Shown here: positions 13,487 through 31,479 of the stretch, piece after piece | Layout: each line of letters begins with the position of its first letter | Position numbering within the stretch: position 1 is the first letter of the stretch | Assembly (NCBI GenBank): GCA_021771025.1 | Contig: JAETPW010000013.1 | Location: forward strand, 1 to 51,544 | Origin: Clostridiaceae bacterium | Lineage (GTDB): Bacteria; Bacillota; Clostridia; TANB77; CAG-508 | Direction: 5' to 3' | Length of the DNA stretch: 51,544 nt | Position numbers and translations under genes: made by a program | The notes under the pieces: model-generated | What the model was told of the DNA's origin: nothing | The model's input: only the letters and a program-made list of their open reading frames with translations | Database searches by the model: none

Positions 13487-13945
13487 TTTCTTTCCTAAAA
13501 TCACCTTAATTTCACGATTAATTTTACCTCTACTAATTCTTAAGGTAACCTCATCATCTGGCTTTTTCTGATAAACGTATTCTCGCAGATCATTCATTGT
13601 ATTTAATTCTTTTCCATCAATACCTAAAATGATATCGCCTTCTTTTAATTCTGTTTGGGAAGCTGGTCCTTTTTCTGTGATTTGTGCTACATAGATTCCT
13701 TGCTTAAAACTTACTTTTTGGTCTAAGTAAGGGATTACTTCTTTGTCATAAGCATAAATCCCAATGGTGGCCTGAGTAAATTCTCCTGTTTCTTGGAAAC
13801 TTTCAATGATTGGTTTGACTACATTGATGGGTATAGCGAACCCTATCCCTTCTGCTGTTGAGATTTTTACTGTGTTGATTCCGACTACTTCTCCATTAGG
13901 GTATATTAATGGTCCACCACTATTTCCGAGGGTTAATCGTTGCAT
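13484..13945 (-). pseudogene. htrA: HtrA serine protease, C-terminal fragment after frameshift
   Basis: The downstream half of an HtrA/DegP-type protease. It begins inside the catalytic loop with GNSGGP (the active Ser) and continues through the end of the protease domain. A PDZ domain (about residues 55-150 of this frame) includes QTELKEGDIILGIDGKELN. The upstream frame runs on 26 bp past its start and ends in INPRK where INPGNSGGP is expected. Removing one base near 13926-13930 (CCTCGG to CCCGG or CCTGG) restores one open frame of about 375 residues. Either the gene is dead or the assembly has a one-base insertion. Confidence 0.85.
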
Positions 13946-14710: not shown

Positions 14711-14816
14711 GTTTATTCTTTATTTTTTATTGTTTGTTCTTTAATTTTTGTTCGGTTTCAACTATAGGTTCAGATTACAAAATCACTTTTTTCTGAGTAA
14801 CCAGAACGGTCGCACT

Positions 14817-15065
14817 TACTATTCACAGCCTTATTAATTGTAGAGAAGTGTAAAAAAGGAAGCTTAGCCAATGATAATCCTATTAATTTATACCTGACAG
14901 TTCCCTTTTGACCCGCGTTAGGCTTAAAACCCGATAACAGGCTTCTTTGTTAGGGACTTAAGGGTTTTAAAATGACCCTGCTATGGAAGGTTAAATGAAT
15001 AGGATTATCATTGGCTAAGCTTCCTTTTTTACACGGTTCCCCTTTTCTGCAAGCCGTGAATAGTA
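14817..15065 (+). repeat. Structured interspersed element, copy A
   Basis: A core of about 101 bp (14892-14992) is enclosed by a perfect 37-bp inverted repeat (14848-14884 with 14998-15034). The core begins with CTGACAGTTCCC and ends with GACCCTGCTATGGAAG. Inside it, TTAAAACCC pairs with GGGTTTTAA, and TAACA pairs with TGTTA. A further outer inverted repeat (TACTATTCACAGCC-like at 14817 with its complement at 15051-15065) makes it look like a unit with ends. It is intergenic, downstream of the acyl-CoA synthetase gene. Copies B and C share the core but not the stem sequence. Confidence 0.85.
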
Positions 15066-15122
15066 GCCGGTGGTTACCTCTTGATTGATGTAGTGACTAA
15101 TTATTTGCTCAGCTCAGCTTAA

Positions 15123-16853
15123 CTAATTTAATTTTTTTAATTCTTCATAACGTTTTACTTTTTGTGTGGTAGTTTTTACTAATTCTTCTGTGGTAATGGA
15201 GATTTTTTTGATGTGTTTGAAAATGGGTAAATTTTCATTGATTTTTTTAACTTCTTTCCAAAGGATTTCTTCGTATTCTTTTTCTGTTTTTTCTCCTAAT
15301 GTTTCTTTGATTCTTTCTGCATCATAGACAATTTTTGCACATAACATGGTATCTGTTGTGTCTTTATCTCGGCTATAGACTAATGATTCTACTACATAAG
15401 GAATTTTGTTGATTAAGAATTCAATTTCTTGTGGATATACATTTTTTCCGTTTTTTAAGACGATGATGTCTTTTTTTCTCCCTGTGATGTAGATGAATCC
15501 TTCTTCATCAATATAACCAAAGTCTCCTGTTGAGAACCATCCGTCTTTTAAGGCTTTTTTGGTTTCTTCTTCGTTTTCGTAATACCCCATCATTACGCTT
15601 GGTCCTTTTACGGTAATTTCTCCTACGCCTTCTTGGTCAGGATTTTCTATTTTGACTTCTAGGCTGGGAAGGGCTAATCCTACTGAGCCTGGTCTTTTTT
15701 CTTTGTCGGTTTCTGCTGAGATTACGGGAGATGTTTCGGTTAAGCCATAACCTTGTATTAAATCGATCCCTAAGTCTTTAAATCCGAGGATGGTATCTTT
15801 ATTCATTGGTGCAGCACCATAGAGAACTACTCTTAAATGTCCTCCAAAGTTGTCTAAAACTTGTTTGAAAATTACTTTTCGTAGGTCAATGTGGCATTTT
15901 AATAATGTATTCGATAGTTTGGTCATGGTTTTTATTAGTTTTGTTTTTCCTTGATCATCTATAGCTTTGATAATCTTTTTGTACATGGTTTCTAATACGA
16001 GTGGTACTGCTACAAATACAGATACTTGATATTCGGCTAAATTTTTTTGGATATGTTTTAGTCCATCGCAAAAGGCTACTGTTGCTCCACAATAAAAACC
16101 ATAAATAAAAGTGATTGTACATTCAAAGGTATGATGAATGGGCAAAAAGGATAGTAGTGTATCAGTTGGATAAATTTTTACCCAGCTGGCTATATCTGTG
16201 ATGTTACTGCATATATTTTTTTGACTTAACATTACTGCTTTTGGTTCATTTGTCGTTCCTGATGTAAATAGCATGATGCTCATTTTATTTTCGTCTATTT
16301 CAATGTTATCGTATGAGGTGTCTCCCTTTTCTATCAGTTGTTTGCCTTGATTAAGTAAATTATTAAGGGTTTCTATTTCTGGATCTTCTCTTTCGTCCAT
16401 ACAGATGATTAAATTTAGTTGATTGTCATGATTTTTTTTGCTTTCTTTGACTACTTCTATGTATTTTTCGTCACAAATAATTACTTCTGCTTCACTTCTT
16501 CTAATTAGTGTTGTTATTTCTTTGTCTGGTAACGCTCTATCTATTGGTACGATGACCATATCTCCACAGGTTACTGCTAGGTAGCTTATGCACCATTCAT
16601 AACGGTTGTTTCCAATAAGAACAACTCTTTTCCCTTGTAATCCTAAGGATAGTAGCATTGTGCTTAATGCTTTGATGTCTTTTCCTGTTTGCTCATAGGT
16701 TTTATTTATGTATTCTACTGGTTTGGCCATATAATCTTTTTTGTATTTATAGGCGATTTGATCTGCGTGTTGTTCACATGAATAATCAACTAGTTCCCTG
16801 TAGTTAATAACTTTTCTTGACTCGTATACTTTTCGGTTGGTGTTTTTTTCCAT
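15123..16853 (-). CDS. AMP-forming long-chain acyl-CoA synthetase family protein
   Basis: A 576-residue adenylate-forming enzyme that would activate a carboxylic acid, most likely a fatty acid, to acyl-AMP and then acyl-CoA. Visible motifs are the P-loop FTSGTTNEPKA at 196-206, YGLTETS at 369-375, STGDFGYID around 441-449, TGRKKD at 458-463 and the C-terminal catalytic Lys region (TTTQKVKRYEE). Its length and layout match COG1022-type ligases. It diverges from the NRPS gene across a 330-bp gap and is a good candidate to supply the acyl chain used by the NRPS condensation domain. That link is inference; a general lipid role is possible. Confidence 0.88.
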   Translation of the reverse strand: MEKNTNRKVYESRKVINYRELVDYSCEQHADQIAYKYKKDYMAKPVEYINKTYEQTGKDIKALSTMLLSLGLQGKRVVLIGNNRYEWCISYLAVTCGDMVIVPIDRALPDKEITTLIRRSEAEVIICDEKYIEVVKESKKNHDNQLNLIICMDEREDPEIETLNNLLNQGKQLIEKGDTSYDNIEIDENKMSIMLFTSGTTNEPKAVMLSQKNICSNITDIASWVKIYPTDTLLSFLPIHHTFECTITFIYGFYCGATVAFCDGLKHIQKNLAEYQVSVFVAVPLVLETMYKKIIKAIDDQGKTKLIKTMTKLSNTLLKCHIDLRKVIFKQVLDNFGGHLRVVLYGAAPMNKDTILGFKDLGIDLIQGYGLTETSPVISAETDKEKRPGSVGLALPSLEVKIENPDQEGVGEITVKGPSVMMGYYENEEETKKALKDGWFSTGDFGYIDEEGFIYITGRKKDIIVLKNGKNVYPQEIEFLINKIPYVVESLVYSRDKDTTDTMLCAKIVYDAERIKETLGEKTEKEYEEILWKEVKKINENLPIFKHIKKISITTEELVKTTTQKVKRYEELKKLN

Positions 16854-16925
16854 TCTCTTCCCTCTTTCTTTTTATTGTGTTAATTTTATCTTAAAACATT
16901 GTATTTGGCAATAGTTTTTTTGAAT

Positions 16926-16957
16926 TTAAAATGACCCTGCTATGGAAGACTAAATTT
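16926..16957 (+). repeat. Structured interspersed element, 3' fragment (copy D)
   Basis: A 32-bp remnant identical to the 3' end of the element core and start of the right stem (TGACCCTGCTATGGAAGACT, then AAATTT). It carries the GAC version of the closing pairs, as in copy B. The left half is missing. A small hairpin (GTGT-cggt-ACAC) follows. It lies between the acyl-CoA synthetase and NRPS genes. Confidence 0.7.
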
Positions 16958-17121
16958 GTGTCGGTACACGAATATCACCAACTCGTTCAGGCGGGCCTCT
17001 TCTTCCTTAAAAAATAATTTATTTAAATCAAACTTTCTTCTATTTACGATTTCACACTATCTTTTACTTTCGACACCATTTAACTTTTTATGATAAAAAT
17101 CTACTTTTTTACGCAAAAAAT

Positions 17122-17150
17122 TTGCAATTTTATTTCATCTTTTGTATAAT
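17122..17150 (+). promoter_or_regulatory. Promoter of the NRPS operon
   Basis: TTGCAA (17122-17127), 17-bp spacer, consensus TATAAT (17145-17150), about 40 bp before the NRPS start codon. Confidence 0.75.
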
Positions 17151-17190
17151 GACTCTAGTAAATTAATAATGAGAATAAAGGGTGAAAATT

Positions 17191-20100
17191 ATGGAAAAAA
17201 AGATGTACAACTTAACTATTCCACAAAAAAACATTTGGAATACTGAATTATTTTATCAAGGAACAGCCATCAATAACATTTGTGGCTCTGTACTTTTTGA
17301 ACCTCAGGTTAATTTTGAATTATTAAAAAAAGCCATCTATACCTTTATCCGTTCCCACGATAGTTTCCGTTTAAGATTTGTGATCAAAGAGGACATTTGT
17401 CAATACGTAGAGGATTTTTCTCCTTTTCCTATTGAACTACTAGAATTACAAGATGAAGCTGACTTTCATCAAGCTGAATCTTCCATTGCTAGTCATTGTT
17501 TTGACCCTCTAAAAACAAGTCTTTTTTATTTTACTTTATTTCGTTTTCCTCGTGGTAATGGTGGTTTTATTGTTAATATCCATCATTTAATTGCTGATTC
17601 TTGGACTTTGGGTCTTATTGCTAAAGAAATTACTGAAATTTATTCTAGGCTTGTTCAAGGTGTTTCTTGCGAAATTCCTTCCTATTCTTATCTTGATTAT
17701 ATTCAATCTGAACAAAAATATATCCATAGTTCCAAATATGAAGCAGATAAAATGTATTGGGATAATGTGCTTTCTTCTGTTCCTGAACCAGTAACTATGC
17801 CTTCTATTTTTTCTGAGAATAAACAAGATTTTACTTGTTTAGCTCATCGTGTGACTTATGTTGTTGAGGAAGAATTAATTTCACAAGTAAAATCTTTTTG
17901 TGATGAACATCGTATTTCCTTATATCACTTTTTAATGGCTATCTACTCTATTTATATTGGTAGAGTAAATCATTCTGATGATTTTATTGTAGGAACACCA
18001 ATTTTGAATCGAACTAATTATCGTGATAAACAGACTACTGGTATGTACATTACTACCTTGCCTGTTCGCGTTTCTCTTGAGGAGTCTTTGTCTTTTTCTG
18101 CCTTTGTGAATCAATTGGCTACTCAATTTGTTTCTATGTATCGTCATCAAAAATATCCTTATCAATCTATGTTACAGGAAGCTAGAAAGGATAATCCTTC
18201 TTTGCCTAATTTATATCATGTGCTTTTGTCTTACCAAATTACTAAAACAAAAGATGAATCAGATGTTAATTACTCGACTAATTGGGTCTTTAATGGTCAC
18301 ACTTCAGACGATATGGATATTCACTTTTTTGATTTAAACGATACCGGAAAACTTAATATCGCCTATGATTATCGTACTTCTAACTATACTGAGCAAGATA
18401 TTCAGGATCTTCATGAACGTATTATTTATCTAATTGAGCAAATATTACAAAAACCTTCTATTACGATAAACGATCTTTCTGTAACTCCCCCTCAAGAGTT
18501 AGAAGAGATTTTGCGTGATTTTAATTGTACAGATGCTTTATACCCTTCGGATAAAACCATGGTAGACTTATTTTGTCATCAGGTTTCTTTAACACCTGAT
18601 CACATTGCGATAAAATACAAAAATACTTCTATGACTTATGCTGAATTAGATAAAAAATCCAATCAAGTTGCTCATTTTTTGCGTACATTAGGAATTAAAC
18701 CAAATGACGTAATTGCTTTACGTTTGAATAAATCGCTAGAAATGATTACTGGTATTTTGGGTATTATTAAATCTGGTGCTTGTTATTTACCAATTGATTT
18801 GTCCTATCCGCAAACTCGTATTGATTTTATGCTAAAAGATAGTCATACTAAAGTTTTTTTAACTAACTTTGCTCATCGTGAAGAAATAGAAGTTTCTATT
18901 CCTTCGTATTTATTAGATTTCGATAATGAAGAAATATACCAAATGTCTGATTCTTCTTTACCTATGGTTAATTCTCCTGATGATTTATTATATATTATTT
19001 ATACATCAGGTTCTACGGGAACACCAAAGGGGGTAATGATTACTCATCGTAATGTTGTTCGTTTGATTAAGAATGATCATTTTCAATTTGATTTTGATTC
19101 TTCTGATGTTTGGACAATGTTTCATTCGGTTGCTTTCGATTTTTCCGTTTGGGAAATGTATGGCTGCTTATTATATGGGGGAACATTAATTCTTATTCCA
19201 GAAACAGTCGCTAAAGATCCAAATTTGTTCTTAGATTTATTGCGTAAAGAAAAGGTTACTGTTTTAAACCAAACGCCTACTTATTTTTATAATTTGTTAG
19301 ATTGTGAATTACTTAGAGATGATTCTTCTTTGTGCATACGTTATATCATTTATGGTGGTGAGGCATTAAAACCTAATTTGATTAAACCTTGGAAAGATAA
19401 ATATTCGTTTGTTAAATTAATTAATATGTATGGTATCACGGAAACTACTGTACATGTTACTTTTCGTGAGCTTGATGAACACGATTTATCTTTACCTTAT
19501 TCCAATATTGGAAAACCGATTCCTTCTTTAAAGGTCTATGTCATGGATGAAAATTTACATATTCTCCCTTTTGGAGTAGAAGGTGAGATGTGTGTTTCTG
19601 GTTTAGGTGTATGTAGTGGTTATCTAAACCGCCCTGAATTAAATGAAAGTCGTTTTGTGCCTAATCCTTATTGTCCTGAAGAATTGTTATATCGTTCAGC
19701 CGATAATGCAGTTTTATCACGTGATGGTAATTTATATTATAGAGGAAGAATCGATAATCAAGTAAAAATTCGTGGATTCCGTATTGAACTCGGAGAAATT
19801 GAAACAAAATTATTAAGACATCCTTTAGTCGAAAAATGTGTTGTTTTACCAAAGAAAGAAGATGAGAAAGATTCTTTTTTAGTGGCTTATGTTGTAGCAG
19901 ATGCTAGTGTTACTTCTTTGCTACTAAAACAATATATTTCTCAGCTGGTTCCTGAATATATGATTCCTAGTTTCTTTGTTTTTATGGAGGACATTCCTTT
20001 AACTAATAATGGAAAAGTTGATCGTAAACAATTATTAGCCCAAAAAATTGAACTGGCTCCTACTTCAACTTATTTTGCTCCTCGAAATGATTTTGAGAAA

Positions 20101-21507
20101 ACCTTCCAAGAAATATTAGAACAAACTTTACGTATTGAACGTATTGGTATTGACGATAATATTTTAGAATTAGGGGCAGATTCATTAACCTTAATGAAAA
20201 TTACCATTATTTTGTTAGAAAAAAATTATCTAGTTAATATTCAAGATATTTATGAATTGAAAACCATTCGTAATATTGGTGATAATTTTTATTATCATAA
20301 ACATCCTGATGTTAATGTTAATACTTTATTTGACCATAATCTTTATTATGACTTTGAACATTCTACCTCTTCACGTGAAGTACCAATGAAAAATGTACTA
20401 CTGACTGGTGCTACTGGTTATTTAGGAATTCATTTATTATATCATTTGGTTAAATACACGGATTCTACCGTATATTGTCTAATTCGTAGAAAAAATAAAG
20501 AAGATCCTGAGAAACGATTATATCGTAAACTATCTTTTTATTTTGGAAAAACGATGTTAGAATATTTAGGAACGAGAATCAAAGTCATTAATGCTGATAT
20601 AACTCTTCTTCATTTTAATTTATCTGACGTAGATTATGATCAGTTAGGTCATACAATTGATGTAGTTATTCATTCAGCAGCTCTTGTTAGTCATTATGGC
20701 AATAAAGATTTGTTCGAATTGGTTAATGTAACAGGAACGAAAACCATGATTGATTTTTGTCAGTCTTATGGAATTTACCTAAATTATATTTCTACCACTT
20801 CCATTTCTGCTGATTATTTAACCACAGGAGATAACCCTATTATCTTTGATGAACATAGCTTATATGTTGGTCAAAATTGTAATGCTAATGTTTACATCCG
20901 CAGTAAATTTGATGCAGAATATGAAGTATGGAAAGCCTTATCTTCTGGTTTAGTTGCTTCGGTTTATCGTTTAGGTAATATTACGGCTCGCCTTTCTGAT
21001 GGAAAATTTCAGGAAAATGATAAGCAGAATGCCTTTTTAAACCGTATGATTGCTTTTGCTAAATTGCAAATGATTCCTGAATCATTTGCTTATTTAACCA
21101 TTGATTTAAGTCCAGTGGATGTTTGTAGTGAGTTTATTGCTACCTTAATGAAATATGAATCTAGTTACCCAAAAGTTTTTCATATTTTTAATGAACACCG
21201 TATTTGTGTTTTGGATTTATTAGAGGATTTAAAGTCTTCTGGTGCTAATATTTCAGTTGTTCCTGATGATGTTTTTCATAATTATGTAGCAACTACCGAT
21301 ATGGAAGAGGCTATTTTAGGAATTATTAATGATTTAACGAGCGATTATGCAAAATATCACCATAATATTGATTTAAAACAAGATTTTACTTTATCTTATT
21401 TAAACCATTATGATTTAGCTTGGCCTGTTCTTAGTTCACAATATGTTAATACTTTTTTTAAAAAATATATAAATGGAGATGATTGTACGAATGAAACTAA
21501 ATTATAA
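17191..21507 (+). CDS. Nonribosomal peptide synthetase C-A-T-R, predicted threonine-specific
   Basis: A single-module synthetase of about 1438 residues; ATG 17191 follows a GGGTG site, with an in-frame GTG at 17182 upstream. Residue numbers count from that GTG. Condensation domain 10-430 has HHLIADS at 134-140 (catalytic His; normal final Gly replaced by Ser). Adenylation domain 455-950 has TSGSTGTPKG at 608-617. Aligned by eye to GrsA, the ten specificity residues are D653 F654 W657 N696 I723 G725 M749 V757 H758 K945, i.e. DFWNIGMVHK, the classical code for threonine. Carrier domain: LGADSL with S1001. Thioester reductase 1070-1440 has GATGYLG (1076-1082) and a YxxxK pair (Y1238/K1242). An N-terminal C domain without an upstream module implies an acyl or peptidyl donor in trans; reductive release implies an aldehyde or alcohol. 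Predicted product: N-acyl-threoninal or -threoninol. Confidence 0.93.
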   Translation: MEKKMYNLTIPQKNIWNTELFYQGTAINNICGSVLFEPQVNFELLKKAIYTFIRSHDSFRLRFVIKEDICQYVEDFSPFPIELLELQDEADFHQAESSIASHCFDPLKTSLFYFTLFRFPRGNGGFIVNIHHLIADSWTLGLIAKEITEIYSRLVQGVSCEIPSYSYLDYIQSEQKYIHSSKYEADKMYWDNVLSSVPEPVTMPSIFSENKQDFTCLAHRVTYVVEEELISQVKSFCDEHRISLYHFLMAIYSIYIGRVNHSDDFIVGTPILNRTNYRDKQTTGMYITTLPVRVSLEESLSFSAFVNQLATQFVSMYRHQKYPYQSMLQEARKDNPSLPNLYHVLLSYQITKTKDESDVNYSTNWVFNGHTSDDMDIHFFDLNDTGKLNIAYDYRTSNYTEQDIQDLHERIIYLIEQILQKPSITINDLSVTPPQELEEILRDFNCTDALYPSDKTMVDLFCHQVSLTPDHIAIKYKNTSMTYAELDKKSNQVAHFLRTLGIKPNDVIALRLNKSLEMITGILGIIKSGACYLPIDLSYPQTRIDFMLKDSHTKVFLTNFAHREEIEVSIPSYLLDFDNEEIYQMSDSSLPMVNSPDDLLYIIYTSGSTGTPKGVMITHRNVVRLIKNDHFQFDFDSSDVWTMFHSVAFDFSVWEMYGCLLYGGTLILIPETVAKDPNLFLDLLRKEKVTVLNQTPTYFYNLLDCELLRDDSSLCIRYIIYGGEALKPNLIKPWKDKYSFVKLINMYGITETTVHVTFRELDEHDLSLPYSNIGKPIPSLKVYVMDENLHILPFGVEGEMCVSGLGVCSGYLNRPELNESRFVPNPYCPEELLYRSADNAVLSRDGNLYYRGRIDNQVKIRGFRIELGEIETKLLRHPLVEKCVVLPKKEDEKDSFLVAYVVADASVTSLLLKQYISQLVPEYMIPSFFVFMEDIPLTNNGKVDRKQLLAQKIELAPTSTYFAPRNDFEKTFQEILEQTLRIERIGIDDNILELGADSLTLMKITIILLEKNYLVNIQDIYELKTIRNIGDNFYYHKHPDVNVNTLFDHNLYYDFEHSTSSREVPMKNVLLTGATGYLGIHLLYHLVKYTDSTVYCLIRRKNKEDPEKRLYRKLSFYFGKTMLEYLGTRIKVINADITLLHFNLSDVDYDQLGHTIDVVIHSAALVSHYGNKDLFELVNVTGTKTMIDFCQSYGIYLNYISTTSISADYLTTGDNPIIFDEHSLYVGQNCNANVYIRSKFDAEYEVWKALSSGLVASVYRLGNITARLSDGKFQENDKQNAFLNRMIAFAKLQMIPESFAYLTIDLSPVDVCSEFIATLMKYESSYPKVFHIFNEHRICVLDLLEDLKSSGANISVVPDDVFHNYVATTDMEEAILGIINDLTSDYAKYHHNIDLKQDFTLSYLNHYDLAWPVLSSQYVNTFFKKYINGDDCTNETKL

Positions 21508-23542
21508 AAAAGATCTTAGGCGTATTATCTTATTTTATTGGGCAGTTCCTATTTTAACTGCCCTTGTCCTATTCCCTTTATTACCCATCATTTTAAATTA
21601 CCCACCAGATAGTATTGATAATCAATTTCAACTAGAATTTGATGGCATTACGTATACACAACAGTATATCTTATTGGTATTTCTGATTATATTCTTTAGT
21701 TTGATTTTTTTGCTGATTCGTGTTTTTAAAATCAGTAAGTCTTTTTCTATTTTAGAAAAAAAATCTGACTCTCTTAGTAAAAAGGAAATCTCTGTTTTGA
21801 TCTTAAAAATACGTTCTTTTTGTATGAATACACCTTACTTATTGTATTTTTTAGAAATATTGGTTCCGCTTATTTTTTTACCGGTTACTTTTATGATTAT
21901 TAAAGCCTATCCGTTAACGATTATTAAAATATGTTTAATTTATTTATCTTTCTTTACTTTAGGCTCTGTTATTAGTCTTATCTTTTCTAAAAATCAATTT
22001 AGGCGTATTTTAATGGTTCTGCACGATAATTATACAGAAATTATGGATGATATCGAATTTGGCCTTGCTTCTCGCCGTAAAAGTGAGTTTAAATCATTAA
22101 CGAGTAAATTAATTTTACAATTATTTCCTCTTGTATTAATCTCTTTGATTATTACTTCTTTAGTCGGTTATGTACAAGCATCTACGCAAACAGGAGATAT
22201 TTATTATGAATCTTATCGTACGTTAATGGAAAAACAGTTCAATCATCCGTTTCGTGATCAGCAAGAAATGCGTGATACTTTAGAGGAAATTGGTTTTTTG
22301 AATGATGCTCATCTTTACTTTATGATTGATTCTTCTGGAAATTATATTACTTCTGATCATTCTGAATTACAACCATTTTTTATTAAGTATACATTAGAAA
22401 AATCCGTTTCCGAGCAAGGACGTACTTACGATTATTTTTGTTTAGATGTTGAAGGAATTGCTACAAAATGTATTACCTTAGATGGACAAACGTATTTTGT
22501 TGGTTATCTTTATAATACACAACAACCTCAATTTTTAAAATTTATCTTGATTTCTGATGTTATTCTATTTATGATTATTTTTGTTATTTTATTATATGTT
22601 TCGGCTTCTTTATCAAAAGATATTAAAGTAGTTACTAGTAAGTTAAATGAAATTGCTTCTGATAACCGAAATGAAATTCGACTTAATCATAATTTAGCCA
22701 TTACCTCAGAAGATGAGGTCGCTGATCTGGTTATGGCTTTTAATGTTACTCAGCGATTAATTAAACGTAATGTAAAACAAATTCATGAAAACCAAGACAT
22801 GTTAATGGAAAAAGAACGTTTAGCTTCACTTGGTCAACTAATTGGGGGAATTGCCCACAACTTAAAAACACCAATTATGTCCATTTCTGGTGCAGCCGAA
22901 GGGTTATCTGATTTGATTAAAGAATATAACTCCTCTATTGATGATCCTGATGTCAATTCTCAAGATCACCATGAAATTGCTAAGGATATGGCTAGTTGGG
23001 TAGAAAAGGTAAAAGAATATACTGGTTATATGTCTGATGTTATTACTGCTGTTAAGGGTCAAGCGGTAACGTTATCAGAAGCAGAAAATATTACTTTTGA
23101 TGTAGAAGAATTAGTAAAACGTATTGATATTTTAATGAAACATGAGTTAAAGAGTGCTTTAATTTACTTAAATGTAGAATTACATACTTCGGAAAAAACT
23201 TCTCTTCATGGAGATATTAATAGTTTAGTACAGGTAATTAATAATATGATTTCTAATGCTATACAAGCTTATGGCGGAAAACCGGAACAAACGATAGACT
23301 TTATTGTTGACCAGACTGACAGTCATCAATTAATGATTACGATTCGTGATTATGCCTCTGGATTACCTGAATCAGTAAAAGCTAAATTGTTTAAAGAAAT
23401 GATTACGACAAAAGGAAAAAATGGAACTGGACTTGGATTATATATGTCTTATTCTACTATTCGTGCTCATTTTGGAGGAGACATTACTTTTGAATCAGAA
23501 AAAGGAAAAGGTACATCTTTCCATATCATTCTTCCTCTTTAA
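21491..23542 (+). CDS. Membrane sensor histidine kinase
   Basis: A sensor kinase of about 683 residues overlapping the NRPS 3' end by 17 bp (ATG 21491 after GGAG; upstream in-frame ATGs exist, and numbering here counts from 21473). Several N-terminal membrane helices (18-42, 62-83, 122-145, 150-170, 212-232) are followed by an extracytoplasmic sensor (235-350), another helix (356-377) and a HAMP-like linker. The dimerisation domain has the phospho-acceptor H462 in GGIAHNLKTP. The ATPase domain has the N box NMISNAIQAY (591-600), DYASG and GTGLGL. Asn after the His, instead of Glu/Asp, is unusual but known in some families. Co-transcription with the NRPS suggests it senses the product or controls its use; its partner is probably the receiver/HD-GYP protein next door. 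Confidence 0.9.
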   Translation: MKLNYKKDLRRIILFYWAVPILTALVLFPLLPIILNYPPDSIDNQFQLEFDGITYTQQYILLVFLIIFFSLIFLLIRVFKISKSFSILEKKSDSLSKKEISVLILKIRSFCMNTPYLLYFLEILVPLIFLPVTFMIIKAYPLTIIKICLIYLSFFTLGSVISLIFSKNQFRRILMVLHDNYTEIMDDIEFGLASRRKSEFKSLTSKLILQLFPLVLISLIITSLVGYVQASTQTGDIYYESYRTLMEKQFNHPFRDQQEMRDTLEEIGFLNDAHLYFMIDSSGNYITSDHSELQPFFIKYTLEKSVSEQGRTYDYFCLDVEGIATKCITLDGQTYFVGYLYNTQQPQFLKFILISDVILFMIIFVILLYVSASLSKDIKVVTSKLNEIASDNRNEIRLNHNLAITSEDEVADLVMAFNVTQRLIKRNVKQIHENQDMLMEKERLASLGQLIGGIAHNLKTPIMSISGAAEGLSDLIKEYNSSIDDPDVNSQDHHEIAKDMASWVEKVKEYTGYMSDVITAVKGQAVTLSEAENITFDVEELVKRIDILMKHELKSALIYLNVELHTSEKTSLHGDINSLVQVINNMISNAIQAYGGKPEQTIDFIVDQTDSHQLMITIRDYASGLPESVKAKLFKEMITTKGKNGTGLGLYMSYSTIRAHFGGDITFESEKGKGTSFHIILPL

Positions 23543-23560
23543 CCGGTTGGTACACTAAGA

Positions 23561-23605
23561 GTTTGACTTTTTGTAAAAAAGAAAAAGTCAAACTTTTTTT
23601 GCCAA
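23561..23605 (+). terminator. Terminator after the histidine kinase gene
   Basis: The strong stem GTTTGACTTTTT / AAAAAGTCAAAC is followed by T7, ending the NRPS-kinase transcript. Confidence 0.85.
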
Positions 23606-23635
23606 TTTTTTCTCCATTTTTTTTCCTAAAAACTC

Positions 23636-23664
23636 TTGCTTTTTACATAACTTATTTATATAAT
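23636..23664 (+). promoter_or_regulatory. Promoter of the receiver/HD-GYP gene
   Basis: TTGCTT (23636-23641), 17-bp spacer, TATAAT (23659-23664). The gene is thus a separate transcript from the NRPS operon, with a GGGAGG ribosome-binding site. Confidence 0.75.
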
Positions 23665-23693
23665 GACAGTGATATGGAAAAGGGAGGTCTATC

Positions 23694-24755: not shown

Positions 24756-24796
24756 GGAAAAAAGGGGGACGCCCTTTTCTTCCCTAGTTATTTTTT
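24752..24796 (+). terminator. Terminator after the HD-GYP gene
   Basis: The long stem CTAGGGAA...AAGGG / CCCTT...TTCCCTAG is followed by TTATTTTTT, overlapping the stop codon. Confidence 0.85.
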
Positions 24797-24957
24797 CCCT
24801 AGTCATATTTTGTTTAGACTCCTATTTCAGGCCCCCCTCTTATTTTAATTTAACTTGAAAAAAATAACTAAATACAAAAAAGGTACTATTTTTGTAAAGA
24901 AAACATAGAATACCATATAAAGTTTTGTAAAATTAATACAAAATGTATTAAAAATAA

Positions 24958-24986
24958 TTGATTTTTAATAAAAAATGGTGTAGAAT
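24958..24986 (+). promoter_or_regulatory. Promoter of the ATPase/RloB-like pair
   Basis: TTGATT (24958-24963), 17-bp spacer, TAGAAT (24981-24986). An alternative -10 (TACAAT) lies about 25 bp further down. The surrounding 150 bp is extremely A-rich. Confidence 0.5.
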
Positions 24987-25034
24987 AGTATAGAAAAGCT
25001 TAAAAATGATACAATATTATAGGAGGTTGATAAA

Positions 25035-26402
25035 ATGTTCACATATGTAAAAGCTAAAAACTTTAAATCATTAAAAGATATAGAGTTCAAATTAAATAAG
25101 ACAAAAGCAAAAACAAATCAATTGATATCTATATATGGTGAAAATGGAAGTGGAAAAACCAATATTGTAGAATTATTCAAGTTATTACAGCAATTAACCA
25201 TGTCAAGAGCAACAGATATTGCAATGAATAAACTGCCAAAAGAATTTTGGAAAATACAAGAAGAAATGTCAGATCAGTTACCAACAGAAATAACACAAAT
25301 TTTCCAATTATCATTTAATCTAAAAGAATATAGAATGTTAGATGAAGAAGAACCTACTGAAATTGAATATGGTTTTAAAATTAATAATAATAATGGATTT
25401 TATTATCTAAAATTTGATGATGAAATTAGAGAAGAAAAACTATATTATATGGCTGGAAAACAAAGAGCATATCTATTTCAAATAAAGAAAGAAAATAACA
25501 AAATTATTAAAAATTTAAATAAAAACATCTTTATTAATGAAAAATATAATGAAGAATTAATCGATGGAATTGATAAATATTGGGGGAAATATACTTTTTT
25601 ATCATTATTATCATTTGAAACAGTAGAGAAAAATCAAGATTATATCGATAATAATATAGCTAAAAATATGATTGATGTAATAGATAAAATTTGGTCAATG
25701 GTAGTACATGTTGATAAAGGTGCTTTAAAAATAATACCAGATAGTTTTGTAAAAGTCAGAAAATTAAACAATATACAAAAAGGAATGGTAAAAAAGGATA
25801 AGTTACCTGAAATAAAGAAATATGAAAATGTTTTAACTATATTTTTTACCCAAGCATATGCAGATATCAAAGAAGTTAAATACGAAATAGATGAAAAAGA
25901 GGACAGGATCCATTATGAATTATTTTTTAACAAAATGATAGGAGGAAAAATAAAGTCTATTCCTTCTAGACTTGAGTCAGATGGAACAAAAAGAATATTA
26001 AATCAATTTGATACAATCATTGGTTCACTATTAGGAGAAACCGTTATATTAGATGAAATAGATAATGGAATTCATGATGTATTAATGAAAAATATTATCA
26101 TGTCAATAAAGGATGAAATTACAGGACAGCTCATTATAACAACTCATAATACTCTATTATTAGAAACATTACCGAAAGAAAATATCTATATATTGTCAAC
26201 AGATTATCATGGAAATAAAACAATAAATTCTATAAAGGAATATGGAATCAAAATACAAAGAAATAATAATGCTCGTGATTTGTATTTTAAAGGTGTTTTT
26301 GGAGGAATTCCAACAACAGACTACATTGATTTTGAAGAAATAAAATATGCTCTGGAAGATTCTGAAAATAATGAGGAAAATGCTAATGGCGAGGAATCTT
26401 AA
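25035..26402 (+). CDS. AAA/ABC-type ATPase of a probable two-gene phage-defence module
   Basis: A 455-residue SMC/RecF-like ATPase with Walker A GENGSGKT (35-42), a long helical insertion, a signature-like RLESDGTKR (312-320), Walker B VILDEIDNG (337-345) and the switch His in TTHNT (369-373). This is the AAA_21/AAA_15 layout found in RloA, AbiL and related abortive-infection systems. It has a GGAGG site and overlaps by 17 bp a gene for a small TOPRIM-like protein, the usual partner. A-rich codon use differs from the T-rich NRPS region upstream, pointing to acquisition. No other defence genes flank it. Confidence 0.85.
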   Translation: MFTYVKAKNFKSLKDIEFKLNKTKAKTNQLISIYGENGSGKTNIVELFKLLQQLTMSRATDIAMNKLPKEFWKIQEEMSDQLPTEITQIFQLSFNLKEYRMLDEEEPTEIEYGFKINNNNGFYYLKFDDEIREEKLYYMAGKQRAYLFQIKKENNKIIKNLNKNIFINEKYNEELIDGIDKYWGKYTFLSLLSFETVEKNQDYIDNNIAKNMIDVIDKIWSMVVHVDKGALKIIPDSFVKVRKLNNIQKGMVKKDKLPEIKKYENVLTIFFTQAYADIKEVKYEIDEKEDRIHYELFFNKMIGGKIKSIPSRLESDGTKRILNQFDTIIGSLLGETVILDEIDNGIHDVLMKNIIMSIKDEITGQLIITTHNTLLLETLPKENIYILSTDYHGNKTINSIKEYGIKIQRNNNARDLYFKGVFGGIPTTDYIDFEEIKYALEDSENNEENANGEES

Positions 26403-26961
26403 TTATTGTAAAGGAATTGTAATAGCACATGGAAAAAGTGAACTTCTTTTAGCAGAGCATATCAAAAGTAACTTACATTTGCCTATAGAAATATATGCAG
26501 AAAGTAATGGAAAAACGAGCATACAAATAGATAGTTTAATGACAGTATTAGGAAATAATATTTTTAAACATAAAAGAGTATTTAACCAAAAATATGTAGT
26601 AGAAGAAGAAAAAGGAATATTAAAAAATTTTTCATTAATGCCAATAATGGACTTAGATGATACCAGTGAAGATAGAAAACAAAAATATATTTTAGGAGAA
26701 ATGTTTAAAAATCATTGGTTAAGTCCATACATAGTTCCCATTTGGAACAACAATAATTTAGATGAAGTATTACTAGATTTGAAACTTATCGACAAACTAC
26801 CAAATAATAAAGAGAAAGGAAAGCTGTATAGAGATTTGTTTCCAACAAATAAAGGTGAATCAGATATACAACAAGTTAAACATTTGATGAATATGTTTGA
26901 AAAATCAAATAAAACAAATATGCAAGTCTTTATCAAAAAATGCCTAGATAGTTGTTGCTAA
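26386..26961 (+). CDS. RloB/TOPRIM-like partner protein
   Basis: A protein of about 191 residues translated from ATG 26386 (GAGG upstream), inside the end of the ATPase gene. Pattern elements fit a degenerate TOPRIM/RloB fold: an N-terminal strand-glycine motif GIVIAHGKSE (RloB-type proteins have EGKTE), a central acidic strand LMPIMDLDD, and PIWNNNNLDEVLLD, which may correspond to the NPCFELWLL-type segment of RloB. The same order of ATPase then RloB-like gene is known from AbiL/RloAB abortive-infection pairs. By that analogy it would be the nuclease-like effector, though the first acidic residue of the motif is not conserved. Moderate confidence. Confidence 0.65.
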   Translation: MARNLNYCKGIVIAHGKSELLLAEHIKSNLHLPIEIYAESNGKTSIQIDSLMTVLGNNIFKHKRVFNQKYVVEEEKGILKNFSLMPIMDLDDTSEDRKQKYILGEMFKNHWLSPYIVPIWNNNNLDEVLLDLKLIDKLPNNKEKGKLYRDLFPTNKGESDIQQVKHLMNMFEKSNKTNMQVFIKKCLDSCC

Positions 26962-26983
26962 ATAATACTTTTATACCAAAGTA

Positions 26984-27168
26984 GCTCTGAACCAAGGTAT
27001 CTATAGTATTTTTTAGATAAATTTACGTCTGACAGTTCCCTAAGACTCACGTTAGGCTTAAAACCCGATTACTGGCTTCTTTGTTAGGGACTTAAGGGTT
27101 TTAAAAAGACCCTGCTATGGAAGACTAAATTTATCTAAAAAATACTATAGATACCTTGGGTTCAGAGC
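26984..27168 (+). repeat. Structured interspersed element, copy B
   Basis: The same core as copy A (27028-27125) is enclosed in a stem of about 43 bp (26984-27025 with 27126-27168). The stem is complementary except for a bulge and has a sequence unrelated to the stems of A and C. The closing pairs are GTC/GAC instead of ACC/GGT, a compensated change. It lies between the 3' ends of the RloB-like gene and tex. Confidence 0.85.
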
Positions 27169-27351
27169 GGACTCATTCCTCAAAGCCTTTATCCAGTAAT
27201 AGATAGTTTATAACGTATAAGTGAGATTATTGCTTGAGTTTTTATTTTATATTAAATTTTTACTCAAAGAAAAAATAGTAATTACTATTTAAGTAGTTAC
27301 TATTTTTTGTCTATTTTATCTTTCTTATCATTATTCATTAACCAAAATCAT

Positions 27352-29535
27352 TTAACATTTCATCGACAATCCAACTTTTTGTCTTTCTTCATCAATTTTA
27401 ATGACTTTCACTTTTACAATATCACCTACTGCTACCACTTCTGATGGATTCTTAATATATTTATCACTCATTTCTGAAATATGGACTAGTCCATCGTGTT
27501 TTACCCCAATGTCGACAAATGCACCAAAGTCAATGACATTTCTTACGGTTCCGGTTAAGATCATTCCTTCTTTTAGGTCTTCTAGTTTTAATACGTCTGA
27601 TCGTAAGATTGGTTTTGGCATATCTTCACGTGGGTCTCTTCCTGGTTTACTTAGTTCGGCGATGATGTCAGATAGTGTCATTTCCCCTATTTCTAATTCT
27701 TTGGCCATTTTGCTTACTTCGATTGTTTTTAGCTTTTGCCTTAGTTCGTCTAATTTTTGTTTGTCTTGTAGATCAGATACGTTAAAGCCAAGGCTGGTTA
27801 GTAGTTTTTCGGTTGCTTCATAGCTTTCTGGATGGACTGCTGTGATTTCTAATGGGTTGTCTCCGCCAAATATGCGTAGGAATCCTGCACATTGTTCAAA
27901 GGCTACTTTTCCTAGTTTTGGTACTTTTAGTAGTTGTTTTCTGTTTTTTAGTTTTCCGTTTTCATCACGGTATTTAACGATATTTTTGGCAATGGTGTTG
28001 TTGATTCCTGCTACGTAAGAAAGTAGTGATGGGGTTGCTGTGTTAACGTCTACTCCTACTTTGTTTACTGCTCCTTCTACTACTCCTCCTAAACTTTCGG
28101 CTAAGTTTTTTTGGTTAACATCGTGTTGATATTGCCCTACACCAATGGCTTTTGGGTCTATTTTTACTAGTTCTGCTAGTGGATCTTGTAGTCTTCTGGC
28201 TATGGAGATGGCTCCTCTGATGGATACATTGATGTCAGGATATTCTTCGGTTGCTAGTTTTGAGGCAGAATAGACTGATGCTCCTGCTTCACTGACGATT
28301 ACATAGTGTACTTCTCGTTTGGCTTCTTTGATGACGTCTGCCACAAACATTTCGGATTCTCGCGATGCTGTTCCGTTTCCGATGGCTATCATATCGATTT
28401 TGTCTTTTTCGATTAAATGTAATAATTCTTTTTTGCTTTTTTCTACGTCATTTTGTGGAGCTGTTGGATAGATGGTTGTGGTGTCTAATACTTTTCCTGT
28501 TTCGTCGATGACTGCTATTTTACAGCCGGTACGATAAGCAGGGTCAAACCCCATAACGGTTTTTCCTTTAATTGGTGCACCTAATAATAGTTGTTTTGCA
28601 TTTTGCCCAAATACTTTGATGGCTTTTTCTTCTGCTTTTTCGGTTAAGTCTGAACGAATTTCTCGGTCGATGGATGGTTCTATTAGTCGTTTATAACTAT
28701 CTAAAATGGTGTCTTTTATCATTTGGGTAAATTGCGTTTCTCCTTGAAGTATATCTCTTTCCATATGTACGATGATTTTATCTTCTGGTTTTTCGATTTT
28801 TACTTTTAATACGTTTTCTTTTTCCCCACGATTAATGGCTAGGATTCGGTGACTTGGGATCCATTTGATTGGTTCTTGATAGTCATAGTACATTTCGTAG
28901 TTTGATTTTTCTTCTTCGTCTATGGCTTTTGTGCTGATTAATGCTTCTCGGTAACACATGATTTTGATGGCTTTTCGATATTCCGGATTGTCTGAAATGT
29001 TTTCTGCTATGATGTCTAGTGCTCCTTGGATGGCTTCTTCTGCGGTTTTGACTACTTTATCTTTATTTTGTTTGTCCGCTTCCTCTAGTTTATCGATATT
29101 TATGTATTCTTTGGCAATTTCTTTGATTTGTCTAGTTTCTTTTTGGGCGATAATGATTTCGGCTAATGGTTCTAGTCCTTTTGCTTTTGCGACTGTTGCT
29201 CTGGTTTTCTTTTTTTGCTTATAGGGACGATAAATGTCTTCTACTTCTGCTAATGTTTTACTGATTGCTACGGCTTTTAGGATTTCATCGGTTAGTTTTC
29301 CTTGTTCGTCGATGGAGTGGATAACTTCCTCTTTTCTTGCTTCTAAGTTTCTCAGGTAAGTTAGTCTTTCGCCTAAGTCCCTAAGTGTTTCATCGCTTAG
29401 TCCTCCCGTTACTTCCTTACGGTAACGAGCAATGAATGGTATGGTATTTCCTTCATCAATTAACTTTATGGTTGCTTCTACTTGGCTTTCTTTGATATTT
29501 AATTCTTCTGCTATGGTCTTTCCGATTTGATTCAT
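27352..29535 (-). CDS. tex: Tex-family RNA-binding transcription accessory protein
   Basis: A 727-residue protein with the full Tex architecture: N-terminal helical region (1-190), YqgF/RNase H-like domain (about 330-440, with VMGFDPAYRTGCKIAVID), helix-hairpin-helix segment (LLSYVAGINNTIAKNIVKYR), and a C-terminal S1 RNA-binding domain (about 650-725, GMILTGTVRNVIDFGAFVDI). Tex binds nucleic acid and is linked to transcription and ribosome-stalling rescue. The length is normal. It sits downstream of the ABC-F gene on the same strand with a 30-bp gap, so the two may be one transcript. Confidence 0.96.
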   Translation of the reverse strand: MNQIGKTIAEELNIKESQVEATIKLIDEGNTIPFIARYRKEVTGGLSDETLRDLGERLTYLRNLEARKEEVIHSIDEQGKLTDEILKAVAISKTLAEVEDIYRPYKQKKKTRATVAKAKGLEPLAEIIIAQKETRQIKEIAKEYINIDKLEEADKQNKDKVVKTAEEAIQGALDIIAENISDNPEYRKAIKIMCYREALISTKAIDEEEKSNYEMYYDYQEPIKWIPSHRILAINRGEKENVLKVKIEKPEDKIIVHMERDILQGETQFTQMIKDTILDSYKRLIEPSIDREIRSDLTEKAEEKAIKVFGQNAKQLLLGAPIKGKTVMGFDPAYRTGCKIAVIDETGKVLDTTTIYPTAPQNDVEKSKKELLHLIEKDKIDMIAIGNGTASRESEMFVADVIKEAKREVHYVIVSEAGASVYSASKLATEEYPDINVSIRGAISIARRLQDPLAELVKIDPKAIGVGQYQHDVNQKNLAESLGGVVEGAVNKVGVDVNTATPSLLSYVAGINNTIAKNIVKYRDENGKLKNRKQLLKVPKLGKVAFEQCAGFLRIFGGDNPLEITAVHPESYEATEKLLTSLGFNVSDLQDKQKLDELRQKLKTIEVSKMAKELEIGEMTLSDIIAELSKPGRDPREDMPKPILRSDVLKLEDLKEGMILTGTVRNVIDFGAFVDIGVKHDGLVHISEMSDKYIKNPSEVVAVGDIVKVKVIKIDEERQKVGLSMKC

Positions 29536-29565
29536 TTTATCTTTCTTCCTCTCTTTCTTTTTTTA

Positions 29566-31149
29566 TTATTCCATTCCTAAATATTCATTATAACTAATTT
29601 CTCGGTCAATTACTGTTCCATTTTCTTTAATATCTAAGATTCTGTTCGCTACGGTTTGGCTTAGCTCATGATCATGTGAAGTAAATAGGATATTACCAGT
29701 AAATTTTTTCATGCCATCATTTACTGATGTTATGCTTTCCATATCTAGGTGGTTTGTTGGTTCGTCAAAGATTAAGAAATTAGCTCCTGATAACATCATT
29801 TTGGCTAATACACATCTTACTTTTTCTCCTCCTGAGAGAACGTTTACTTGTTTTAAAGCTTCATCTCCTGAAAATAACATTCTTCCTAAGAAACTTCTTA
29901 CGTAGGTTTCGTCTGGATCTTTAGAATATTGCCTTAGCCATTCGGTGATGCTTTCTTCTGAATCGAATAAATAATTATTGTCCTTTGGGAAATAAGCTGT
30001 GGTAATTGTGGTTCCCCAACTGATTTCTCCTTCGTCTGGCTCGATTTCTCCTGCGATGATTTGGAATAATACGGTTTTGGCCATTTCATTATCGGCTAGA
30101 AAAGCAATTTTGTTTCCTTCTTTTACGGTGAAGGATACATTGTCTAATAGTTTAATGCCTTCTACTGTTTTGCTTATCTTTTTTACGGTTAATATGTCAT
30201 TTCCTGGTTCTCTGTCTGGTTTAAAATCTACATAGGGATATTTACGGTTGGATGGTTTGATTTCGTCTAGTTCTATTTTTTCTAATGTCTTTTTTCTTGA
30301 GGTAGCTTGTTTTGATTTAGAGGCATTAGCACTAAAGCGAGCGATAAAGTCTTGTAATTCTTTCATTTTTTCTTCTTTCTTTTTATTTTGCTCTCTCATT
30401 TGTTTTAGGGCTAATTGGCTAGATTCGTACCAGAAGTCATAATTTCCGGGATATACTTTGATTTTTCCAAAGTCTACGTCTGCAATGTGGGTACATACTT
30501 TATTTAAGAAATAACGATCGTGAGATACGACAATGACAGTGTTTTCAAAGTCAATTAAGAAATCTTGTAACCAATTTATGCTTTTTAGGTCTAAGTCGTT
30601 TGTTGGTTCATCTAATAAAAGTACATCTGGGTTACCAAATAAACTTTGGGCTAATAGTATTTTTACTTTTTCTCTGGCTTCGATTTCTTTCATCATTTTG
30701 TAATGATTTTCTGGGATTATCCCTAGGTCATTGAGTAGCATAGCTGCATCTGATTCAGCATTCCATCCATCTAGTTCGGCGAATCTTTCTTCTAGTTTTG
30801 CTGCTTTCATTCCATCTTCTTCGGAGAAGTCTGGTTTATTGTAGATTTCTTCTTTTTCTTTCATGATGTCATATAATTCTTTGTTTCCCATTAATACGGT
30901 GTCCATTACCGTATATTCTTCGTAGGCAAAGTGATCTTGTTTTAGTACCGATAGTCTTTCTCCTTTTTCTAGACTAACATCTCCTTTGCTTGGTTCAATT
31001 TCTCCTGATAATACTTTAAGAAAAGTGGATTTTCCTGCTCCATTGGCTCCTATGATTCCGTAGCAATTTCCTTTTCCAAATTTTATATTTACGTCTTCAA
31101 ATAATACTCGTTTTCCAAACCTTACGGTTACTCCATTTGCGCTTAACAT
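29566..31149 (-). CDS. ykpA: ABC-F family ATPase, YkpA/YbiT subgroup
   Basis: A 527-residue soluble protein with two ABC domains and no membrane region. Domain 1 has Walker A GANGAGKST and Walker B VLLLDEPTNDLD. Domain 2 has LSGGEKVRC and FLIFDEPTNHLD, but its Walker A position (LADNEMAKT) is degenerate, as in B. subtilis YkpA. The linker contains the ARFSANASKSKQATSRKK stretch typical of this subgroup. ABC-F proteins act on the ribosome in translation regulation or antibiotic protection. YkpA-type members are housekeeping, so drug resistance is not implied. Confidence 0.92.
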   Translation of the reverse strand: MLSANGVTVRFGKRVLFEDVNIKFGKGNCYGIIGANGAGKSTFLKVLSGEIEPSKGDVSLEKGERLSVLKQDHFAYEEYTVMDTVLMGNKELYDIMKEKEEIYNKPDFSEEDGMKAAKLEERFAELDGWNAESDAAMLLNDLGIIPENHYKMMKEIEAREKVKILLAQSLFGNPDVLLLDEPTNDLDLKSINWLQDFLIDFENTVIVVSHDRYFLNKVCTHIADVDFGKIKVYPGNYDFWYESSQLALKQMREQNKKKEEKMKELQDFIARFSANASKSKQATSRKKTLEKIELDEIKPSNRKYPYVDFKPDREPGNDILTVKKISKTVEGIKLLDNVSFTVKEGNKIAFLADNEMAKTVLFQIIAGEIEPDEGEISWGTTITTAYFPKDNNYLFDSEESITEWLRQYSKDPDETYVRSFLGRMLFSGDEALKQVNVLSGGEKVRCVLAKMMLSGANFLIFDEPTNHLDMESITSVNDGMKKFTGNILFTSHDHELSQTVANRILDIKENGTVIDREISYNEYLGME

Positions 31150-31253
31150 GAGTGTTTTCCTCCTTTAACTTTATCGTTTGCATTATATCTCATTTTTGCT
31201 TATTTTTCAAGGGTTTTATTGATTTTCTTGTTTTTCTTGTTTTTTTGGTATCC

Positions 31254-31472
31254 GTGAAAAAAGAGAAGTTTGGTCAATGGTTCTAACAGTAATTTAACCT
31301 TCCATAGCAGGGTCTTTTTAAACCCCTTAAGTCCCTCACGAAGAAGCCTGTTATCGGGTTTTAAGCTTGGGCGCGGGTCTTCGGGAACTGTCAGGTATAA
31401 ATTACTGTTAGAACCATTGACCAGACTTCCCTTTTTTCACTACTCTACAATTTATACGGCTGTGAATGGTAA
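31254..31472 (-). repeat. Structured interspersed element, copy C
   Basis: A reverse-orientation copy. The core is closed by a stem of about 46 bp (31254-31299 with 31394-31440) with only a few mismatches. Outside the stem it shares with copy A the left flank (CTCTACAATT and GGCTGTGAAT blocks at about 31443-31466), showing that the unit extends beyond the hairpin. The stem differs from A at many positions but stays paired. It lies upstream of the ABC-F gene. Confidence 0.85.
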
Positions 31473-31479
31473 CAACTAA

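Follow-up and report, generated by a model that had tools for sequence, protein, structure and literature searches.

A probable mobile hairpin family with a conserved core and self-matching arms in some gut-type Clostridia

The bcr1-type repeats of Bacillus cereus are mobile, intergenic and folded and are present in many copies, and the element described here resembles them in each of these features. In the excerpted account of QMITE2 of Coxiella (PMC10969869), MITEs are likewise short, multicopy and intergenic, with terminal repeats, direct repeats of 7 to 9 bp and the capacity to form hairpins. The element differs from them in having a conserved folded core, arms that drift in concert and a hairpin module that also sits in other frames or in none; furthermore, no parent insertion sequence was found. 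The REP, BIME and REPIN sequences associated with RAYT, as covered in extracts of two reports (PMC3733652 and PMC8266576), share with it a GTAG foot, head-to-head dimers and insertion within palindromes. However, the element is about 190 nt long against 20 to 40 nt for REPs in those extracts, has a 95-nt conserved core and occurs in two draft genomes with no Y1 match. GT pairing is also described in the first of these extracts as frequent in GTAG REPs (PMC3733652), whereas the element has no G-U preference. Finally, template switching is described, in the available part of one study, as creating and maintaining perfect stems by copying one half of a hairpin from the other, with several linked compensatory changes (Monttinen and Loytynoja 2022, PMC8794818). 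Closely matched stems with linked changes are also found here, although the hairpins in that part of the study lie in rRNA genes and microRNAs and those described here are mobile-repeat arms of 40 to 96 bp around a core of about 95 nt, with dozens of sibling copies.

The window analyzed is a 51,544-nucleotide stretch of a Clostridiaceae genome (contig JAETPW010000013.1), in which an earlier note had reported three copies and a fragment; all were present, with the cores of copies A, B and C located and fragment D partial. Copy A lies on the forward strand, with a type 1 left frame at 14815 to 14847 (CTTACTATTCACAGCC...GTAGAGAAG, counting the first arm base), a left arm of 46 bases at 14848 to 14893, a conserved core of 95 nt at 14894 to 14988 (R2, 99.8 bits), a right arm at 14989 to 15034 and a right frame at 15035 to 15066 that terminates in GCCGTGAATAGTAG. 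Its two arms differ by one mismatch when a small core-adjacent loop is excluded, and no target duplication was recognized at the ends of its frame. Copy B, also on the forward strand, is bounded by two copies of the target duplication AGATAGTT, at 26946 to 26953 and 27201 to 27208. Between them are a type 2 left frame at 26954 to 26983 (terminal repeat GTTGCTAAATAA, ending in AAAGTAG, counting the first arm base), a left arm at 26984 to 27028, a 94-nt core at 27029 to 27122 (R2, 105.5 bits), a right arm at 27123 to 27168 that is one base longer than the left, and a right frame at 27169 to 27200 (GGACTCATTCCTC...CCAGTAAT), with the last arm base supplying the C of CGG. Copy C is on the reverse strand, with its left frame at 31441 to 31473 (terminal repeat GTTACCATTCACAGCC at 31458 to 31473), left arm at 31395 to 31440, 95-nt core at 31300 to 31394 (R2, 94.6 bits) and right arm at 31254 to 31299; the arms have two mismatches, small loop excluded, and no right terminal repeat was recognizable. 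Fragment D, on the forward strand at 16923 to 16957, holds the 3' end of the core and the start of the right arm (...GACCCTGCTATGGAAGACTAAATTT) and scores 18.1 bits with R2 over 16879 to 16947. The arms of copies A, B and C are 45 to 46 bases long, and the folding energies of the window copies lie 9.7 to 11.8 standard deviations below those of dinucleotide shuffles. As had been noted, the pairs next to the core differ: copies A and C carry ACC/GGT, copy B has GTC/GAC, and fragment D, where only the right side is present, has GAC.

The element is a genome-wide family, larger than was first reported. The 2.04-Mb source genome contains 84 matches at an E value of ≤3e-9, among 92 at ≤0.1; two of these probably derive from a single copy, each half lying at a different contig end. 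Relatives were found in 5 of 193 other sampled genomes of the genus (with the source genome, a patchy 6 of 194), and one genome sampled from a sister genus, G273, carries them as well. The carriers are thus seven in all, G000 (the source), G020, G058, G069, G198, G203 and G273, and the element is carried by some gut-type Clostridia. Using one exact gapped pattern, we found 15 stretches among GTDB contigs, every one titled Clostridia; one of these (L169) lies in G+C-rich DNA and is a false positive. There was no match in phages, plasmids or IMG/VR, the viral scan being made with one exact gapped pattern. No Rfam family reached the gathering score, and relaxed searches gave at the element only subthreshold microRNA models and an IRES, as expected of a long hairpin. 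A literature search, judged from titles and the openings of abstracts, found no description of such elements.

Many source-genome copies sit in a MITE frame with the ends GTTAC...GTAAC. These terminal inverted repeats are of two types. Of the 81 anchored copies, 38 had a recognizable repeat on both sides, although some of these calls are doubtful. Near-perfect target duplications of 7 to 9 bp (about 8 bp) flank 15 of the 38, a few of them T- or A-rich, compared with a mean of 0.5 and a maximum of 2 in 200 shuffles. Together with the dispersal of the copies and the Rfam result, these features support the earlier suggestion of a nonautonomous mobile hairpin. The junctions of the hairpin itself, marked here by hyphens, take the form (T/A)A-G...C-GG in 66 of 73 source-genome copies, and TA-G...C-GG was seen in 7 of 8 copies in G020, 3 of 3 in G058 and 4 of 8 in G198. 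GTAG or a variant thus forms the left foot, and CGG the right foot, of most copies in G000, G020 and G058 and of half in G198. Hairpin-deleted derivatives of the MITE frame exist, and in other species the hairpin module occurs without the frame or in other frames; neither the hairpin junctions described above nor the frame was observed in G069, G203 or G273. No transposase with GTTAC ends was recognized among the open reading frames of 16 additional stretches, all but one of which surround an end match, among the matches listed for an incomplete genome.

Arms of one copy nearly always match each other, while arms of different copies differ in sequence. In a subfamily of 21 copies, the arms mismatch within a copy at 0.93% of positions and diverge between copies by 27%, with a core divergence of 11%; three more subfamilies (17, 10 and 5 copies) agree with this pattern. 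The changes in the 21 copies are those that template switching would leave, linked in both halves and seldom one-sided, with 2,307 cells changed in both arms and 139 in one. Across 75 copies, the residual mismatches in 3,086 cells, leaving out five positions next to the core, are 22 G-U, 16 A-C, 16 transversions and 4 indels. G-U is not significantly favored over A-C (P = 0.42), and the counts become 26 and 23 once 23 copies from five other genomes are added. Among 33 aligned source-genome copies, 15 of 21 arm pairs changed on both sides, and the covariation score for the arms plus the core helix was 0.407, against 0.096 when shuffled, with 0 of 500 shuffles reaching 0.407. Matching arms of 38 or more are present in 73 of 81 anchored copies, plus one by eye; the outcome named in the earlier note as a refutation, copies across the genome with noncomplementary arms, was thus not seen. 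In G198, three of eight copies have aligned arms of 82 to 96 with one to four differences, extending beyond the usual boundary. One site is shared by G020:C10 and G058:C29, with orthologous genes on either side; the arms there differ and each pair matches, and this could represent two separate insertions. Core inversion, an occasional product to be expected of template switching, is rare, with one possible case by eye (C14:76275).

The core behaves differently from the arms. Although the sequence of its long-range helix P2 turns over, the main form of P2 pairs fully in each of the seven carriers, and from species to species this form differs through changes on both sides; in G273 it is CCAGAC/GTCTGG in 8 of 11 copies. 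Nine fully pairing P2 variants from five genomes, selected for full pairing, pair 9 of 9 with their own partners and a mean of 6.9 when swapped. Within the source genome, no core helix changed on both sides among 33 aligned copies; P2 covariation appears in comparisons between species. Some copies depart from full pairing, with one mismatch in 6 of 81 source-genome copies and no clear P2 in 5 more, and a G-U pair in 2 of 11 and a mismatch in 1 of 11 G273 copies. When 30 cores from different species were folded automatically, the result was only seven pairs and -2.33 kcal/mol, and a strict scan of these cores for stacked covarying columns found none. We attribute both results to slipped alignment, because MAFFT and RNAalifold lost the P2 register; P2 was therefore compared copy by copy. 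Pairing of GTTCCC with GGGAC as a pseudoknot was not established and, by eye, fails in G020. Taken together, these comparisons support a core that is a real fold, apparently selected as a folded strand. Selection on a folded strand had been proposed for the whole element, and this idea holds for the core, where one helix covaries across species, and is not the best reading of the arms, given the mismatch and cell counts above.

Because changed cells lie mostly in both arms and G-U is not preferred, we infer copying from arm to arm, and the arm pattern (27% versus <1%, no G-U preference) fits template-switch copying better than selection for RNA pairing. The arms nearly always match within a copy probably because DNA replication uses one arm as the template for the other. 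Replication would slip at the hairpin from one arm to the other and overwrite mismatches, and at times this would extend the palindrome into flanking sequence; the arms would thus drift together and only the hairpin shape would be inherited. Selection may act on the core fold, as RNA or single-stranded DNA, via a putative trans-acting factor that favors spread. In the source genome the hairpin would ride in a MITE moved by a putative DDE-type transposase, and in other species the same module would sit in different frames or be frameless. We therefore favor, as the probable reading, a multicopy mobile hairpin whose core of about 95 nt, with its covarying helix, is predicted to be recognized as a folded single strand, with arms of about 45 bp likely kept matched by template switching. 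Similar arm counts would be expected if selection favored a perfect DNA hairpin or if each transposition renewed one arm.

Could the whole structure, arms included, be a functional RNA family whose compensatory changes were fixed by selection for RNA pairing? Strong arm covariation, the core helix in seven genomes and a GA...GA that is invariant in the closing part of 30 aligned cores from six genomes would suit this idea. We nevertheless consider it doubtful, since G-U is not favored over A-C (22 versus 16), one-arm changes are rare, the arms are near perfect across 40 to 96 bp irrespective of sequence and Rfam gives no match at the gathering score. Improbable too is an element that regulates in cis from promoter regions and spreads together with its function, despite a left end that points toward the downstream gene 41:14 between codirectional genes of the source genome (P = 0.0004) and 9:2 in G273 (P = 0.07), where the distance from the core edge to the gene it faces is 60 to 73 nt in 7 of 11 cases. 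The element lies upstream of six gene groups in two or three species (metK, PFL-like, leuS, aspS-like, a PP-loop gene and a NifU-like gene), compared with three sites common to 3'-facing genes and two mixed. However, presence is patchy (6 of 194 genomes), no left-facing bias exists in G198 (2:2) or G069 (0:3) and the two aspS genes with the element upstream are not orthologues. The copy upstream of PFL in the source genome is probably an independent insertion, because it carries terminal repeats of its own and is flanked by a target duplication that has a single mismatch. Ahead of aspS is a putative T-box, recognized by its motif only, which the Rfam search did not report there. A bidirectional terminator was also set aside, as by eye A/T runs end the type 1 arms and not those of other types.

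An ordinary palindromic MITE with a core that has simply not yet diverged would account for the terminal repeats, the target duplications, the short noncoding copies and the hairpin-deleted derivatives. We rate it very improbable, because the core persists in different species and frames even though both sides of its helix are rewritten, and frameless modules occur in other species; for the core, cross-species pairing contradicts the undiverged reading. A REP/RAYT origin is unlikely, and an oversized GTAG-tagged REP or BIME moved by a RAYT (Y1, HUH) transposase has only a slim chance of being correct. The GTAG at the 5' foot of the hairpin, the mostly head-to-head close pairs (9 of 10) and the REPs described inside palindromes in the excerpted text (PMC3733652) point toward it. 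Y1_Tnp is present in G000, G020, G058 and G203, but we set this origin aside because there was no match in carriers G198 and G069, draft genomes in which absence is not absolute. Additionally, two arms of about 45 nt with a core of about 95 nt are unlike a REP palindrome of 20 to 40 bp, and the GTAG foot is absent from the G069, G203 and G273 copies. To our knowledge, HUH transposition leaves no target duplications. The earlier idea of a retron-like template gained no support either; six of six carrier genomes have reverse-transcriptase matches, 14 in total, and none of the 12 loci inspected contained a core-like sequence.

A bolder version of the mobile hairpin reading, which we offer tentatively, is that the core is a folded single strand of a new class, either RNA or single-stranded DNA, with its own recombinase or RNP. 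The arms would be rewritten in each round, the module would hop between unrelated MITE frames and the heritable unit would be the core sequence plus the hairpin shape rather than the arm sequence. Dozens of sibling copies in one genome each record how the two arms of an inverted repeat are kept alike, and real counts from them allow template-switch copying to be distinguished from compensatory selection. The core, a conserved fold unmatched in Rfam, is now open to covariance-model searches, and the arms caution that a repeat may show perfect stem covariation without selection on RNA pairing.

The window carries three copies and one fragment of a repeat with a core of about 95 nt (CTGACAGTTCCC...GACCCTGCTATGGAA) and arms of 45 to 46 bases on either side (cores of copies A and B at 14894-14988 and 27029-27122 on the plus strand, core of copy C at 31300-31394 on the minus strand, and fragment D at 16923-16957 on the plus strand). 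Each window copy folds 9.7 to 11.8 standard deviations better than its shuffles. A covariance model built from 33 copies was run against the genome (G000, 75 contigs); of the 92 matches with E ≤ 0.1, the 84 with E ≤ 3e-9 form the working set. Two of the 84, C28:1 and C45:1 (contig:position), lie at contig ends and resemble two halves of a single copy; the assembly is therefore probably broken within the element. Matching arms of at least 38 were present in 73 of the 81 anchored copies used for arm analysis, and the remaining 8 comprise C6:77386, which matches fully by eye, one copy at a contig end, and six with short or unlike arms. No Rfam family reached its gathering score for the element.

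Under strict filters, the element was detected in 6 of 194 genomes of the genus (G000, G020, G058, G069, G198, and G203). With a core-only model from the carrier species, 5 of 385 genomes were positive in an order-level sample that may lack G020 and G203, and G273, from another genus of the same family, had 11 matches, all those scored there. A pattern scan of GTDB contigs returned 15 stretches, every one titled Clostridia; 13 are titled with chicken, goat colon, or "Lapin," and one of the other two is a false match.

Across species, the core retains GACAGTTCC...GACCCTGCTATGGA with small changes only. Its long-range helix, P2, occurs in G000 as a main form, TTAAAACCC/GGGTTTTAA, and as the minor forms TTAAAATCC/GGATTTTAA and TTAAAAACC/GGTTTTTAA. 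The helix reads TTGAAAACC/GGTTTTCAA in G020 and GTCAAAACC/GGTTTTGAC in G069 and G203, G058 has the additional form TTGAAAATC/GATTTTCAA, and most G198 copies have TTCAAAACC or TTCAAAAGC, each with its partner. CCAGAC/GTCTGG is found in 8 of the 11 G273 copies; of the other three, two have a G-U pair and one a mismatch. When partners were swapped among nine variants picked for full pairing, own partners paired in 9 of 9 cases versus 6.9 on average after swapping. Of the 81 G000 copies, 61 have the main form and 7 one of the minor forms; a shorter perfect match occurs in 2 and one mismatch in 6, and a clear P2 was not found in 5. Automatic cross-species alignment and folding recovered P2 poorly. 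P2 is the evidence for selection on a folded single strand.

The arms were compared in the 64 of 81 copies whose arms, counted outward from the small loop, align without gaps over 38 positions or more; 53 of the 64 fall into four equal-length subfamilies. In the subfamily of 21, divergence between copies is 27% for arms and 11% for cores, and the two arms of a single copy differ by 0.93%; 2307 cells had changed in both arms versus 139 in one arm. The subfamilies of 17, 10, and 5 copies gave 1.8%, 2.2%, and 1.0% within copies and 36%, 42%, and 26% between them. Selection on RNA is expected to tolerate G-U and to purge A-C. In 75 G000 copies (3086 cells, omitting five core-adjacent positions and anything more than 50 further out), residual mismatches were 22 G-U, 16 A-C, 16 transversions, and 4 indels, and 23 copies of other genomes added 4, 7, 12, and 13, respectively. 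The split between G-U and A-C did not differ from even (P = 0.42 for G000; P = 0.78 with the other genomes added). The unlike-arm copies C50:119721, C50:145924, and C31:50589 were left out of arm counts.

Our reading is that the arms are kept matching by template-switch copying between them, because a switch from arm to arm would explain matched drift with few intermediates, would leave no wobble bias, and would extend palindromes beyond their usual boundary. This mechanism has been described for hairpins of rRNA and microRNA (PMC8794818). In G198, 3 of 8 copies have aligned arms 82 to 96 long with 1 to 4 differences. The G000 copy before aspS (C45:20226) has arms of about 63, the outer left part entering an apparent host T-box terminator; the relatives compared have a similar terminator and no element. 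These arms are T-rich with 7 differences, a modest case for palindrome growth. At L086:2850-3230, the element separates a T-box-like terminator from the start of aspS, which places it within the presumed leader mRNA, and it is absent in the relatives compared. At metK, G020 and G058 share both neighbors (protein identity, 85% and 82%) and have the element in the same place. Two separate insertions there are possible; the arms differ at several positions between the genomes yet match within each, with one G-U in G058, which suggests correction in place.

Two types of frame, GTTACCATTCACAGCC... and GTTACTGGTTAA..., each with matching inverted ends, enclose many of the G000 copies. Target duplications of 7 to 9 bp with at most one mismatch flank 15 of the 38 G000 copies with both ends recognized, versus a mean of 0.5 and a maximum of 2 in 200 shuffled-partner controls. 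Copy B has AGATAGTT on either side (26946-26953 and 27201-27208); no duplication was found at copies A and C, and the right end of C is lost. Solo frames also occur in G000, with the hairpin missing or only part of one arm left. Core-less short MITEs with type 2 ends lie at C50:27076-27153, C33:10654-10725, C56:33992, and C70:16049 of G000, and some such MITEs still carry the outer portion of one arm, as though the palindrome had been deleted. By eye, some G020 copies lie inside other long inverted repeats and some inside none, and no frame was seen around the G198 and G273 copies; the hairpin module is therefore not bound to a single frame. Among the 73 G000 copies with arms of at least 38, 66 have the same precise arm boundary, (T/A)A|G at the left end and C|GG at the right. 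TA|G...C|GG recurs, despite quite different arms, in G020 (7/8), G058 (3/3), and G198 (4/8), and was absent from G069 (0/3), G203 (0/1), and the 11 G273 copies.

Between co-directional genes, the left end points toward the downstream gene in ratios of 41:14 in G000, 9:2 in G273, 4:0 in G020, 2:0 in G058, 2:2 in G198, and 0:3 in G069. The element lies upstream of six gene groups in two or three species (PFL, leuS, PP-loop, NifU-like, metK, and aspS by Pfam, one member each scanned); by comparison, 3'-facing genes share three sites, and two further sites are mixed. These shared sites could reflect regulation, but the PFL-side copy in G000 bears its own target duplication, and repeated insertion into tolerant upstream regions therefore accounts for them at least as well.

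In the window, copy A lies upstream of an HtrA-like protease that seems to be divided between two overlapping minus-strand open reading frames (13484-13945 and 13920-14612; Trypsin_2, then a trypsin end plus PDZ); either the gene or the assembly may contain a frameshift. A nonribosomal peptide synthetase of 1441 amino acids (17182-21507, plus strand; adenylation domain over the cutoff, thioester-reductase-like end below it) is followed by a histidine-kinase-like and then a response-regulator-like protein. Directly ahead of copy B (25035-26961, plus strand), an AbiLi-like AAA_21 ATPase overlaps a 204-amino-acid protein with no family matches, possibly a two-gene defense module.

No retron-like neighbor was seen among 12 reverse-transcriptase loci in the carrier genomes, and a RAYT-driven element is set aside on present evidence (Y1_Tnp was not found in the G198 and G069 drafts). 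Ten copy pairs lie less than 1.5 kb apart, nine of them, including one in G198, head to head with left ends facing. Two G000 copies, C31:113679 and C59:27145, look chimeric by eye, with right-type frames on both sides, and perhaps derive from such pairs. The element recalls GTAG REPs (PMC3733652 and PMC8266576) in having a GTAG foot, in its head-to-head pairing, and in being inserted within palindromes. By this analogy, the element may therefore work partly like a GTAG REP without being one.
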